DNA from: Candidatus Methylomirabilota bacterium
Lineage (GTDB): Bacteria > Methylomirabilota > Methylomirabilia > Rokubacteriales > CSP1-6
Direction: 5' to 3'
DNA: 64,000 bases
NCBI GenBank assembly: GCA_035936835.1
Contig: DASYVT010000148.1
Coordinates: 1 to 64,000, forward strand
The first letter of the stretch is position 1, and the number at the start of each line of letters is the position of its first letter. This document shows, piece after piece, positions 52,593-57,812 of the stretch. The notes under the pieces were generated by a model. That model was not told where the DNA came from. It made no database searches and was given only the letters and a program-made list of their open reading frames with translations. The position numbers and the translations under genes were made by a program.

Positions 52593-53315
52593 CTAAGTCA
52601 GATACTTGCTGAGCCAAGAGCGCATAGTCTCCCAGGCGTTCTGGGCGGCAACCGGGTCGTAGGAGGCCCGGTCGTTGCAGAAGAAGCCGTGCCCGGCTCC
52701 CTTGTAGACCTTCACCTCGGCCGTCTTCTTGAGCCGCTTGAGCGTCTCGTCCACGCGCCTGACCTGGTCCATCGGGATCATGCGGTCCGCTTCGCCAAAG
52801 AAGCACAGCACCGGGCACTGGATGCGGTCTGCCAGGTTGATCGGCGCGGCCGGCGTGTCGGCCGCGATGCCGCCGCCGTAAAACGGCACGGCGACCTTGA
52901 TGGCCGCGGGGTGCCGGCACGCGGTGAGGAAGGCGATGCGGCCGCCGACGCAGAAACCTGTGATGCCGATGCGATCGCCCCGCACGTCGGGCCGGCCCTT
53001 CAGGTGCTGGATGACCACGCCCAGCTCCGCCATCAGGACGGCGTCGTCGAACTTCTGGATGTAGCCGATCGCGCGCGGCACGTCCTCGTATGGCACGATC
53101 GGGCTGCCGAAGCGGTAGAAGAGATCGGGCGCGATGGCGACGTACCCCTCCCGCGCGATGCGCTCGGCTACGTCCTTGATATGGGCGTTGAGGCCGTACG
53201 CCTCCATGACGACGATGACGGCGGGATGGGGCCCGGGACCTGCGGGCCTGCAGACGTAGGCCGGCATCAGGCCGTCGGCCGTGGGCAGCGACTCCATCTC
53301 GGTGCGAATGTCCAT
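52593..53315 (-). CDS. Dienelactone hydrolase family protein
   Basis: The product is 240 aa with an alpha/beta hydrolase fold. The nucleophile Cys122 lies in GFCVGG, with Asp177 (GEAD) and His209 (GHGF) completing the Cys-Asp-His triad of dienelactone hydrolases. Substrates may be lactones or esters; no aromatic-degradation genes are adjacent. It lies 13 nt downstream of the DUF2889-like gene, so it may be the last gene of the copper operon. Confidence 0.9.
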   Translation of the reverse strand: MDIRTEMESLPTADGLMPAYVCRPAGPGPHPAVIVVMEAYGLNAHIKDVAERIAREGYVAIAPDLFYRFGSPIVPYEDVPRAIGYIQKFDDAVLMAELGVVIQHLKGRPDVRGDRIGITGFCVGGRIAFLTACRHPAAIKVAVPFYGGGIAADTPAAPINLADRIQCPVLCFFGEADRMIPMDQVRRVDETLKRLKKTAEVKVYKGAGHGFFCNDRASYDPVAAQNAWETMRSWLSKYLT

Positions 53316-53328
53316 GAGTTCCCCCGCG

Positions 53329-54213
53329 CTAGAAGCTCAAGAGCTTGAGAAGGTCCGCCGTCAGGTCGTACAGCTGGGCGCAACCACTCTCGCCGCCCAA
53401 CTGTGTCTGGATGCGCTTGCGCAGCTCCCCGTCTGCCGGCTGGCCCACGAGGGACCCGATCTTGCCCTGGGGCTCCGTGCAGATGCCCTGGTACGGCAGC
53501 CGCGAGGTGATGGAGTCTGCCGCGGCCACGGTTCCGTCTTCCAAATTTATCTCGACATGGAGGTCGAAGCCGTGGACGTTGTCGTGCATCGAGTGGAAGA
53601 GGTGGAGCCGCGATCCCGTGCGCACGAGCCGCATGACTTTCTTCCGCACGAAGATCCGTCGCGCACCGGGCGACGGGCTGTAGAGATCCGCGACCATCGG
53701 CGTCGAGACGACCCGCGTCTCGAGCAGCGCGCGGCCCGCGGAGCTGTAGGTGAAGCAGGAGCCGGGGAGATCGATCCATCCAGTAGTATCGAGGTCCCAG
53801 CAGGCGCGCGCGCCGCCGGCGGCCAGCCCGGCCGTCGCCTCGCGCGGGAGCTTGGTCGCCTGACGCGCGAGGCGCGCGATCTCGATACCGGCGTCTACGA
53901 GGAGCCGCGAGCCCGGCCCCGACCCCGCCAGCTCCGCCAGGCGCCGGCTGAAGCCCGCCACCATCCGCGCGCCGGCGAGCTGCCCGAACCGCTCGGCGGC
54001 CGCGGGATCCGCCGCGCCGTCGAGAACCCGCGCCACGGCCTCGCGCACCTCATAGCGCGGCGATGGCGTGCACACCGCCACGAGCTCCACGGCCGCGTCG
54101 TCGTCGGTGAGACGCACGGTATGAGTGAAGGCGTCGTCGTGCGTGTTGTCCACCCAGCCTTCCATGCTCCGCTCGTAGCCGTCGCGGCCGTCGAGGTACG
54201 GAGAGGTGATCAC
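53329..54213 (-). CDS. DUF2889-like protein
   Basis: The product is 294 aa from a GTG (54211-54213) that overlaps the copA stop (GTGA). The last 110 residues resemble DUF2889: [33 protein letters not shown], and the terminal [13 protein letters not shown]. The N-terminal half has [17 protein letters not shown] and [21 protein letters not shown]. The function is unknown. The GTGA overlap indicates coupled translation with the copper ATPase. Confidence 0.6.
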
Positions 54214-56645
54214 GTGGAGAGGTACTTCTCCGGATTGGCGTCGAACTTCTGCTTGCACCCCGCGGCGCAGAAATAGATCATCTGCCCCTTGTAGTTCGAT
54301 TGGGCGGCGGCCTTTTTCGGGTCGACTTCCATACTGCACACCGGATCCTTCGCCATGGCGCGTTCTCCCTCCTCGGGCAGTGTGGTGTGGAAGCGCTTGA
54401 GCCTCAGGCTGTTGGCGACGACCGAGACCGACGACAGCGCCATCGCCAAGCCCGCCAGGATCGGCGAGAGCAGAATGCCCCAGAGCGGGTAGAGCGCCCC
54501 GGCGGCCACCGGCACCAGCACGATGTTGTACCCGAAGGCCCAGCCCAGGTTCTCCTTGATGATCCGGATGGTCCGGCGCGACAGCTCCACCGCCGTCACG
54601 ACCCTATGGAGATTTCCCCTCATCAGCGTGACGTCGGCAGCCTCGATGGCCACGTCCGTGCCGGAGCCCATCGCGATACCGACGTCGGCCTGGGCCAGGG
54701 CCGGCGCGTCGTTGATTCCGTCACCGACCATCGCGACCAACCGGCCTTCCCCTTGCAGCCGCTTGATCTCGGCCGCCTTCTGCTCCGGCAGCACCTCGGC
54801 CAGCACGCGGTCGATGCCGGCCTGGCGGGCGATCGCCTCCCCCGTCAGCCGCGTGTCGCCCGTGAGCATGGCGACCTCGATGCCCAGCGCCTGGAGAGCC
54901 GCCACCGCCGCGCGCGCGTCCGGCTTGAGGACATCGGCCACGGCGACGAGGCCGTGGGTCTCTCCGGCGAAGGCGACGTACACGACACTCTTGCCCTCGG
55001 CGGCGAGCCGCCGGGCCACGGGCACGAGCCCCGCGACGTCGAGGCCGCGCGCCTGCATCATGCGCGCGTTGCCCAGCAGGATCCTCCCGTCGGGAGCCAG
55101 CGCGTCCACGCCCTGGCCTGGGACGGCCTGAAACTCACTCACCGGCGGCAGCGCGAGCCCGCGCGCCTTGGCCTCGGTGACGATGGCCTCGCCCAGCGGG
55201 TGCTCCGACCCCTGCTCGGCGGCCGCCGCCAGCGCCAAGAGGCCGTCGGCGGCGAAGCCGGGCGCCGGGACGACGTCGGTAACCACCGGCTTCCCGACAG
55301 TGAGCGTTCCCGTCTTGTCGAAGACGACAATGCCCACCCGGTGGAGCAGCTCGAGCGCCCCCGCGCTCTTGACGAGCACGCCCAGCTCGGCGCCCTTGCC
55401 CGTGCCGACCATGATGGCCGTGGGCGTGGCCAGCCCCATGGCGCAGGGGCAGGCGATGACCAAGACGCCGACGGCGTTGGCCAGCGCGTAGAAGAAGGAG
55501 GGCTCCGGACCCCACGCCCACCACACGCAGAAGGTAAGCGCGGCGATGACGAGGACCACCGGCACGAAGACGCTGGCGACGCGGTCGGCCAGCCGCTGGA
55601 TCGGCGCCTTGGATCCCTGCGCCTCCTCGACCAACCGTATGATCTGGGCGAGCACCGTCTCGCTTCCAACGCGTGTGGCCCGGAAGGTGAACGCGCCGGT
55701 CCGGTTCACCGAGCCCCCGACGACCGCGGTCCCCGGCCCCTTCTCGACAGGAAGGCTCTCACCGGTGAGCATGGACTCGTCCACGGCCGATGCGCCCTCG
55801 ACCACCTGGCCGTCCACCGCGACGCGCTCGCCGGGCCTCACTCGGAGCAGGTCCCCGACCAACACGAGGCCGATGGGCACGTCCTCTTCCCTGCCGGCCC
55901 GCACAAGGCGGGCCGTCTTGGGTCGAAGCGCGATCAAGCGCCGGATGGCCTCGGAGGTGCCGCCCCGCGCGCGCGCCTCGAGCCAGCGCCCGAGGACGAG
56001 AAAGGTCATGAGCAGCGCCGAGGCCTCGTAGTACGGCATGGCGCCCGTGGCCGCGAACACGCTGGGCCAAAGCGTGACCGCCACGCTGAAGAAGTACGCG
56101 GCGTTGGTGCCGATGGACACCAGCGTGTTCATGCTGGCGGAGCGGTGGCGCAGCTCCGTGAGGAACCCCGCGTGGAACTGCCAGCCCACCCAGAACTGGA
56201 CCGGCGTCGTAAAGGCCCAGAGCAGAAACGGGTCGCGCAGCCAGTGAGGCGCCCAGGAGAAGACCTCGTGCATGCTCCCGAGCAGCACCGGGACCGACAG
56301 GGCGGCGCCCACCGCGAACTTGAGTCGCAGGCGCCGGTTCTCCCGCGCGCGTTCGGCCTGTTCGCGGTCGGCGGCCTCGGGCGTGGCCGCGATGTCGGCG
56401 GGCACGGTGTAGCCCGCCGCGGCCACAGCCCGGCGCAACGCGTCGAGCGAGGGCCCGCCGGCGCCCAGGCGGACAGTGGCGCGCTCGGTGGCCAGGTTCA
56501 CCGCTGCCGTCTTCACACCCGGCACGCCCAGCAGCGCCTGCTCGACCTTGCCAACGCAGGCCGCGCAGTGCATCCCCTTCACGGGAAAGTCGAGCCGGGC
56601 TTCCTCTCCCGTCGTCCTCGCGGGCGTCTCGGTGGGCATCGTCAT
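54210..56645 (-). CDS. Copper-exporting P1B-type ATPase with C-terminal YHS domain
   Basis: The product is 811 aa. One N-terminal heavy-metal domain (GMHCAAC, Cys27/Cys30), eight membrane helices, the TGES actuator motif ([12 protein letters not shown]), the CPC metal site ([13 protein letters not shown]), the phosphorylation motif DKTGTLT, and [10 protein letters not shown]. The last 48 residues (764-811) are an extra YHS domain: [12 protein letters not shown] to [20 protein letters not shown] is a metal-binding domain usually found at the N-terminus of such ATPases. It exports Cu(I) from the cytoplasm. It is preceded by GGAGGT and follows csoR through a tandem repeat. Confidence 0.94.
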
Positions 56646-56656
56646 GGCCAGACCTC

Positions 56657-56716
56657 CATCCTACCGCCTTGGCATCCTACCGCCGTGGCATCCTACCGCC
56701 GTGGCATCCTACCGCC
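56657..56716. repeat. 16-bp tandem repeat, about 3.75 copies, at the csoR/copA junction
   Basis: CATCCTACCGCCTTGG (56657-56672) is followed by two copies of CATCCTACCGCCGTGG (56673-56688 and 56689-56704) and a partial copy to 56716. On the minus strand each unit reads GGCGGTAGGATG, containing TAG and, two bases later, ATG. The csoR stop TAG (56711-56709) is the one in the last partial copy. The copA ATG at 56645 lies 11 nt beyond the array. Confidence 0.85.
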
Positions 56717-56990
56717 CCGAAAACCGGGAGAACACCTCGAGCAGCTCGTCCACCTTCTTCTGGCGGTCGCGCGTGCTGCCCGACCGGATGGCGTCGGCGA
56801 CGCAGGACTCGATGTGGCGCCCGAGAAGGAGCCGCTGCACCTGCTCCACGGCGCCCTCCACGGCCGTCAGCTGGAGCAGGATGTCGACGCAGTACTTCTC
56901 CTCTTCCACCATGCGCTGGATGCCCTGCACCTGCCCCTCGATGCGCCGCAGCCGGCCGAGGGCCTTGACCTTCGTCTCGTCGTCAATCAC
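56709..56990 (-). CDS. csoR: Copper-sensing transcriptional repressor CsoR
   Basis: The product is 93 aa from a GTG (56988-56990) that overlaps the upstream gene stop (GTGA). All three Cu(I) ligands of the family are in place: Cys34, His59 and Cys63 (EKYC, RHIESC), plus the four-helix-bundle start LGRLRRIEGQVQGI. Without copper it represses; with copper it releases DNA. Its likely operator is at 57781-57796, upstream of the first gene of this operon. Confidence 0.92.
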   Translation of the reverse strand: MIDDETKVKALGRLRRIEGQVQGIQRMVEEEKYCVDILLQLTAVEGAVEQVQRLLLGRHIESCVADAIRSGSTRDRQKKVDELLEVFSRFSGR

Positions 56991-57775
56991 GTCCGCTCCT
57001 CCGCGGCCGCCGGGCGCCTGGCGTCGAGACCCCGCAGCAGCCACCAGGCCGCGAGAGCCGCCGTCAGGTGCTTGAGTGTATGGCCGCTCAGCAAGTGTCC
57101 CATCGAAAAGATCGGGCCGTCCAGAACCTCGAAGAGCTTGGCGGCGCCGTAGATGGCGATGACACCCATGAGGTAGCCGCCGTGCGTGTAGCGCGCAGGG
57201 AAGAGCCACAGCGTCAGGGGTATCAGCGCCGCCGGCGCGAATTGCACGAGGGCATAGGGCCGCAGGTCGCCCGCGCCGTGGAGCTCGCCCGCGTACCAGT
57301 ACGCGACGCTGCCCGCTCCAGCCAGGAGAAGCACCGGCAGCAGCGCGATCCCGGCGGTCACGCTCACGCGCTCGGCCACAACCGCGGCCAGGAGAGCCAT
57401 GAAGCCGATCGTCATGGGCAGCCGGTCCCACAGGAGCCGCGCGTTCTCGGGCGCCCAGTGATAGTACGCCGAGCCCACGCCGGTGAGCGCGACGCCCGCG
57501 AAGAACAGCGCGTACGGCCAGCGCTCGCGGGATTCGACGAACGAGGCGGACGCGCCGACGGGGGCCATCAGGACCTGCCGGAGCCCCAAGAGCCCGACGA
57601 CCAGGAAAGGCAGGTTGGAGAGCACCGCCCACCCGTTGGGGGCACTCGCGAGGGGGCGCGTGTCGGCAAATCGGTGATAGGCGGGATCCTGCGGGATGGG
57701 CGGCACGACACATGCGGCCGCCACCCCCGCGGCGGTGACGCCCAGCAGCACTCCTATCCGCGCTCCCCGTGTCAT
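56987..57775 (-). CDS. Ceramidase/CREST-superfamily multi-pass membrane protein
   Basis: The product is 262 aa with seven predicted membrane helices. The metal-hydrolase signature of alkaline ceramidases and related CREST proteins is seen: GVGSAYYHW with Ser and His, DRLPMT with the Asp, and near the C-terminus the H-x3-H in GHTLKHLTAA. An active zinc amidase-type site is therefore plausible; substrate unknown. The ATG at 57775 is chosen because an ATG at 57805 would lie upstream of the operator and promoter. It is the first gene of the csoR-copA operon. Confidence 0.75.
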   Translation of the reverse strand: MTRGARIGVLLGVTAAGVAAACVVPPIPQDPAYHRFADTRPLASAPNGWAVLSNLPFLVVGLLGLRQVLMAPVGASASFVESRERWPYALFFAGVALTGVGSAYYHWAPENARLLWDRLPMTIGFMALLAAVVAERVSVTAGIALLPVLLLAGAGSVAYWYAGELHGAGDLRPYALVQFAPAALIPLTLWLFPARYTHGGYLMGVIAIYGAAKLFEVLDGPIFSMGHLLSGHTLKHLTAALAAWWLLRGLDARRPAAAEERT

Positions 57776-57780
57776 GGCAT

Positions 57781-57812
57781 ATACCCTACTGGGGTACTCT
57801 ACCATGGGTCAA
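57781..57812 (-). promoter_or_regulatory. CsoR operator overlapping the copper operon promoter
   Basis: ATACCCTACTGGGGTA (57781-57796) matches the CsoR box pattern TACCC-N4-GGGGTA. On the minus strand TTGACC (57807-57812) and TAGGGT (57783-57788) are 18 nt apart, so the box covers the spacer and -10 region. Predicted transcription begins about at the ATG 57775, implying a leaderless message. Confidence 0.75.

Follow-up and report, generated by a model that had tools for sequence, protein, structure and literature searches.

A gene for a putative CREST-family hydrolase behind a predicted CsoR operator in a copper-export operon of Rokubacteria

Introduction

CsoR-regulated copper operons of the copZA and csoR-copA types are described from Bacillus, Streptomyces and Mycobacterium; the type 2 CsoR operator follows the rule TAC-X9-GTA, with the consensus ATATACCCCTNAGGGGTATAT (PMC3902906). 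In Listeria, the membrane acyl enzymes Lit2 and Lgt2 are copper-induced and co-transcribed with copper-resistance genes (PMC8275575). Residues S77, H81, D92, H217 and H221 of the CREST enzyme ACER3 were shown to be needed for hydrolysis (PMC9436119); their bacterial relatives, by contrast with the alkaline ceramidases themselves, are without known function, and in defining CREST, Pei and Grishin saw no gene neighbourhood of use for the bacterial groups (PMC3146951).

The locus described here lies in a window (the whole stretch of DNA analysed, 64,000 nucleotides) from a genome (G000; 4.1 Mb, 99.9% complete) of the Rokubacteria, which are uncultured soil bacteria. It resembles the above operons in its predicted type 2 operator, C-H-C CsoR, CopA efflux ATPase and autoregulated layout, and carries in addition the gene cer for a CREST/Ceramidase-family membrane protein; no paper linking ceramidase and CsoR was found in the literature.

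Results and Discussion

Operon layout and gene products

The copper operon is encoded on the minus strand in the order box, cer, csoR, 16-nt tandem repeat, copA-YHS, DUF2889, dienelactone-hydrolase-like gene (Table 1); PADLOC gave no match linking the locus to a defence system. The calls of csoR, copA-YHS and a DUF2889-like gene made in an initial annotation of this DNA were confirmed by PF02583 (DUF156; 99.5 bits, cut-off 22.8), by a copper P-type ATPase with HMA and YHS domains and by PF11136, respectively. CopA (TIGR01511) carries C27AAC, CPC399, DKTGT443, HP482 and GDGIND641, i.e. the marks of a P1B-1 copper ATPase (HMA CxxC, CPC, DKTGT, HP, GDGxND). The sole Cys and His residues of CsoR are C34, H59 and C63, aligned by phmmer to solved CsoR structures; they correspond to the Cu(I) ligands C36, H61 and C65 of M. 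tuberculosis CsoR. InrS is also among the PDB matches of this protein.

Three GTGA overlaps or repeats had been proposed to link the genes; GTGA is present at cer/csoR (56990-56987, the GTG start of csoR overlapping the cer stop) and at copA/DUF2889 (54213-54210), but the csoR/copA junction is formed by the 16-nt tandem repeat (56711-56657) and not by a GTGA. Every unit of this repeat holds TAG and ATG, giving a repeated stop/start, and the repeat is also present in G024 with a few changes. The ATG at 57775 is preferred as the putative cer start over the in-frame ATG at 57805; the latter is missing in G053. DUF2889 follows copA-YHS in the relatives whose contigs extend that far; its regular last place in the Rokubacterial csoR-copA-YHS operon (53329-54213; L202-L217) sets this domain of unknown function in a copper context. 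The dienelactone-hydrolase-family gene, a possible operon tail, occupies the same position in G024, G025 and G022 among the relatives examined.

Table 1. Coordinates of the operon and its control region in the window.
Feature	Position	Strand	Description
TTGACC, -35 element of the initial annotation	57807..57812	-	present; register not conserved in G025, G022, G053, G034
Extended -10, putative	57796..57804	-	TGG-TAGAGT = TGGTAGAGT; abuts operator; conserved among relatives
CsoR type 2 operator, predicted	57782..57796	.	operon strand TACCCCAGTAGGGTA; TAC-X9-GTA
cer	56987..57775	-	262-aa CREST/Ceramidase-family membrane protein, probably seven-helix; PF05875
csoR	56709..56990	-	PF02583
16-nt tandem repeat	56657..56711	-	unit TAGGATGCCACGGCGG; 3 full units and part; from sequence
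copA, P1B-type copper ATPase	54210..56645	-	N-terminal HMA (CAAC), CPC motif, C-terminal YHS domain
DUF2889 protein	53329..54213	-	PF11136; regular fourth gene of Rokubacterial copper operon
Dienelactone-hydrolase-family protein	52593..53315	-	PF01738; starts 13 nt past DUF2889

Operator and promoter

Just upstream of cer, at 57782-57796, stands TACCCTACTGGGGTA; it fits the TAC-X9-GTA rule and the published consensus (PMC3902906), has two G/C tracts and lies in the promoter of the csoR/copA operon. The perfect pattern TACCC-N5-GGGTA was found once in the whole 4.1 Mb genome, at this very site (chance expectation 0.36 sites per 4.1 Mb; 9e-6 per 100-bp upstream region). Scanning the genome for TACCC-N4-GGGGTA, as the initial annotation had advised, gave 1-mismatch sites elsewhere; these were rejected as further CsoR boxes and ascribed to chance because the reversed control pattern gave more matches.

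The earlier placing of a CsoR box at the operon head was borne out by footprinting across the family: 28 of the 30 best csoR loci of the Rokubacterial family have a box (TACC-N7-GGTA) upstream of csoR, mostly 19-75 nt before it, and the remaining two carry near versions. Where cer precedes csoR, the box is kept upstream of cer while the sequence further upstream diverges; the distance from box to cer start is 21-25 nt in five of six loci (~130 nt in G022), and none of the loci compared showed another box between cer and csoR. At L212 (G008), 38 nt before csoR, the sequence after the box holds another GGGGGTA half-like element (cccagggggtata), which may make up a tandem operator.

A promoter TTGACC-N18-TAGGGT had been proposed; it is literally present (57812-57807, 57788-57783), but the register of TTGACC is not conserved, TAGGGT is kept only as part of the operator (half-site; GGGGGTA in most relatives), and the relatives point to another element. 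Those without cer have TTGACA-N17-GATACT, then the box; in G000, G024, G025, G022, G053, G054 and G055 a conserved TG(G/A)TAG..T directly 5' of the box takes the place of GATACT in this canonical Rokubacterial promoter. The extended -10 TGG-TAGAGT is thus the probable promoter; under either reading the predicted operator overlaps it.

Cer: family, fold and substrate

Assignment of the gene directly after the box as CREST/ceramidase-like was confirmed by Pfam (Ceramidase PF05875, E 5.6e-8, just above cut-off), this being the only Pfam match; NCBIfam gave no match for Cer. All five residues of the CREST catalytic set are kept (S102, H106, D117, H232, H236); they are invariant or nearly so in alignments A1 and A2, with full invariance in the 58 sequences of A2, and correspond to the five ACER3 residues named above in identity and spacing (S-4-H-11-D; H-4-H). 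With a dN/dS of about 0.27, cer shows purifying selection, as does DUF2889 of the same operon. The AlphaFold2 model is confident (pLDDT 96.9); its top Foldseek matches (SIDT2, ACER3, AdipoR1) are mixed with GPCRs at E about 1e-3, the one to ACER3 (TM 0.56, E 2.2e-3) being weak and no stronger than those to several GPCRs, and Foldseek separates CREST poorly from other seven-helix proteins. A profile search with Cer retrieved SIDT structures and, only weakly, ACER3.

The model for alpha-oxoamine synthase (TIGR01825), which picks up enzymes of this class in 13 of the 14 genomes used as controls, had no match in the 99.9% complete genome; the best-scoring aminotransferases scanned there are ordinary transaminases or a MocR-type regulator. 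No diacylglycerol/sphingosine kinase domain (DAGK_cat) was matched in this genome either. Ceramide is an unlikely substrate since no such synthase was found; alternatively, it might be made by a novel route or taken up from outside.

In other phyla the informative neighbours of cer homologues are lipid enzymes: a Chloroflexi homologue is fused to VTT/DedA and adjoins a PAP2 gene, an Aas-like acyltransferase/acyl-ligase stands beside homologues in Nitrospinota, Methylomirabilis and an alphaproteobacterium, a thioesterase/lipase beside a Nitrospinota homologue, and patatins beside others. Many further neighbours are unrelated to lipids, so this is a lead and not proof. Cer is most likely a zinc-dependent acyl hydrolase with a membrane lipid, though not ceramide, as its substrate. 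The initial suggestion of lipid remodelling has indirect backing from the intact active site and the lipid-enzyme neighbours of homologues in other phyla; a ceramidase in the literal sense is unlikely in a host in which no alpha-oxoamine synthase was found. The Chloroflexi fusion (L079:3398-5515) is a single 706-aa protein composed of the VTT/DedA and CREST ceramidase domains.

Distribution and history of cer in the operon

The usual Rokubacterial order is (metE-orf121) - box - csoR - copA - YHS - DUF2889. In six genomes of three genera (G000, G022, G024, G025, genus g1; G053, g23; G034, g11) cer lies exactly between box and csoR; all three genera share the order cer-csoR-copA/YHS-DUF2889 (the G053 contig ends inside copA), although cer identity drops to 53-57%. 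The initial annotation had wished to see ceramidase-csoR-copA synteny checked: cer adjoins csoR in these six genomes and is absent from the copper operons of most relatives. The G034 locus lacks the body of copA, other copA-like genes being present elsewhere in the genome, and cer, csoR, YHS and DUF2889 remain under the box; the YHS domain persists there as a short gene of its own (L040:9206-9349).

Two congeners of G053, namely G054 and G055, lack cer in the slot and keep a related copy elsewhere in the genome. Behind the box their sequence is still similar, in register, to the cer region over its first 27-34 nt, more so than 300 shuffles; it probably represents deletion stumps, and the slot seems to have lost its cer gene at least once. 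The polarity may alternatively be the opposite, cer having taken over an older short leader. A further stump is possible in G030, where 18 of 20 bases agree; the stretch is just 28 nt long, however, and the genus is another one.

The cer tree is compatible with one or two origins of the operonic copies; 11 further copies in Rokubacteria have neither a box nor a csoR gene close by. Among the best 80 of more than 585 candidate homologues, taken from many phyla, one lies beside csoR (L049, from the Rokubacterium that G022 also represents) and none outside Rokubacteria lies beside csoR or copA; a general copper link of the CREST family was rejected, and in this sample only one Rokubacterial family has the csoR link. 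By these comparisons the cer-csoR link is real but lineage-specific. In L209, L210, L212, L213 and L214, all without operonic cer, a DAGK_cat lipid kinase gene appears between orf121 and the copper promoter (Pfam-confirmed in L209, judged by eye in the others); by layout it is not under CsoR because it lies upstream of the box.

Interpretation

The explanation that we hold to be moderately probable is a CsoR-autoregulated Rokubacterial copper-export operon with a CREST hydrolase gene inserted between operator and csoR, by which copper efflux would be coupled to local acyl remodelling of membrane or lipoprotein. Operator, gene order, conservation, catalytic residues and purifying selection are read from the sequences compared. 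Apo-CsoR is predicted to bind and cover the -10/+1 region; in the expected copper response, Cu(I) would load CsoR at C34/H59/C63 and CsoR would leave the operator; cer, csoR, copA-YHS and DUF2889 would then be transcribed together, as a single transcript; Cer, as a putative hydrolase, would cleave an acyl bond of its presumed lipid or lipoprotein substrate in the membrane while CopA exports copper, and efflux would thereby be coupled, to the presumed benefit of the cell, to remodelling nearby. This suggests that membrane lipids would be altered in these cells when copper rises. A bolder and distinctly tentative extension is that a copper-stress branch exists among the bacterial CREST "ceramidases": its zinc acyl hydrolase would be produced only on CsoR release and would serve copper defence by taking acyl groups off a membrane component that is not a sphingolipid (phospholipid, aminolipid or lipoprotein N-acyl).

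Somewhat unlikely, yet the likeliest rival, is a passenger gene: cer would have been inserted once behind the operator and be co-transcribed with csoR-copA, with a housekeeping role unrelated to copper. The lineage-specific link with its one or two origins, the copper operons of most relatives without cer, the loss from the slot in G054 and G055 with a copy kept elsewhere and the lack of a general copper link among homologues (best 80 of more than 585) all agree with it; however, three genera retain cer at this position, G034 even after copA had left the locus, and a lipid hydrolase made only with copper would be a poor housekeeping arrangement unless basal expression suffices.

A role of Cer in copper handling proper (metal binding, membrane transfer or sensing) instead of lipid hydrolysis is highly improbable. 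The place of cer in a copper operon and the three-His metal site of CREST proteins would allow this, but the full hydrolytic set is conserved, Asp and Ser included, the window copy shows no Cys/Met-rich copper motif, and homologues elsewhere stand near lipid enzymes and, outside Rokubacteria, none near csoR/copA (best 80 of more than 585). The earlier idea that the protein uses the metal found no support beyond the Zn site common to CREST enzymes. Least probable is a regulator of another signal (Ni/Co, formaldehyde or persulfide) in an operon unrelated to copper: CsoR, RcnR, FrmR and CstR form one family and InrS is among the matches, but C34-H59-C63 as the only Cys/His, the type 2 TAC-X9-GTA operator and the cognate CPC-type copper ATPase all argue for copper.

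Comparison with known systems

The regulatory part is a standard CsoR system. Unlike in the copZA/csoR-copA operons, a CREST hydrolase gene comes first here, csoR lies downstream of this inserted gene, and YHS is fused to CopA and followed by DUF2889; the initial view that such a hydrolase is not a standard copper gene is supported. With the CREST superfamily (ACER3; bacterial hypothetical groups 1 and 2, PMC3146951) Cer shares SxxxH, D and HxxxH at the same spacing and probably the seven-helix form; it differs in being bacterial, linked to csoR and encoded in a host in which no sphingolipid synthesis was found. What is new, on sequence evidence, is a CREST gene under a CsoR box, so far confined to Rokubacteria. 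For a bacterial CREST protein, a single copper switch would give a concrete assay condition (copper) and an expected product class (deacylated lipids).

The closest precedent for cer in a copper operon, by functional analogy only, is Lit2/Lgt2 of Listeria and Enterococcus mobile elements (PMC8275575), where the gene of an integral-membrane acyl-modifying enzyme likewise stands among copper-resistance genes; the likeness is one of regulatory logic, which for cer is predicted. Lit is a transacylase of unrelated fold with a His dyad, whereas Cer is a CREST protein, and no homology between them was found (Ceramidase the only Pfam match, none in NCBIfam). If the proposal is true, Cer and Lit2/Lgt2 would be two unrelated examples of a membrane acyl enzyme being drawn into copper defence.
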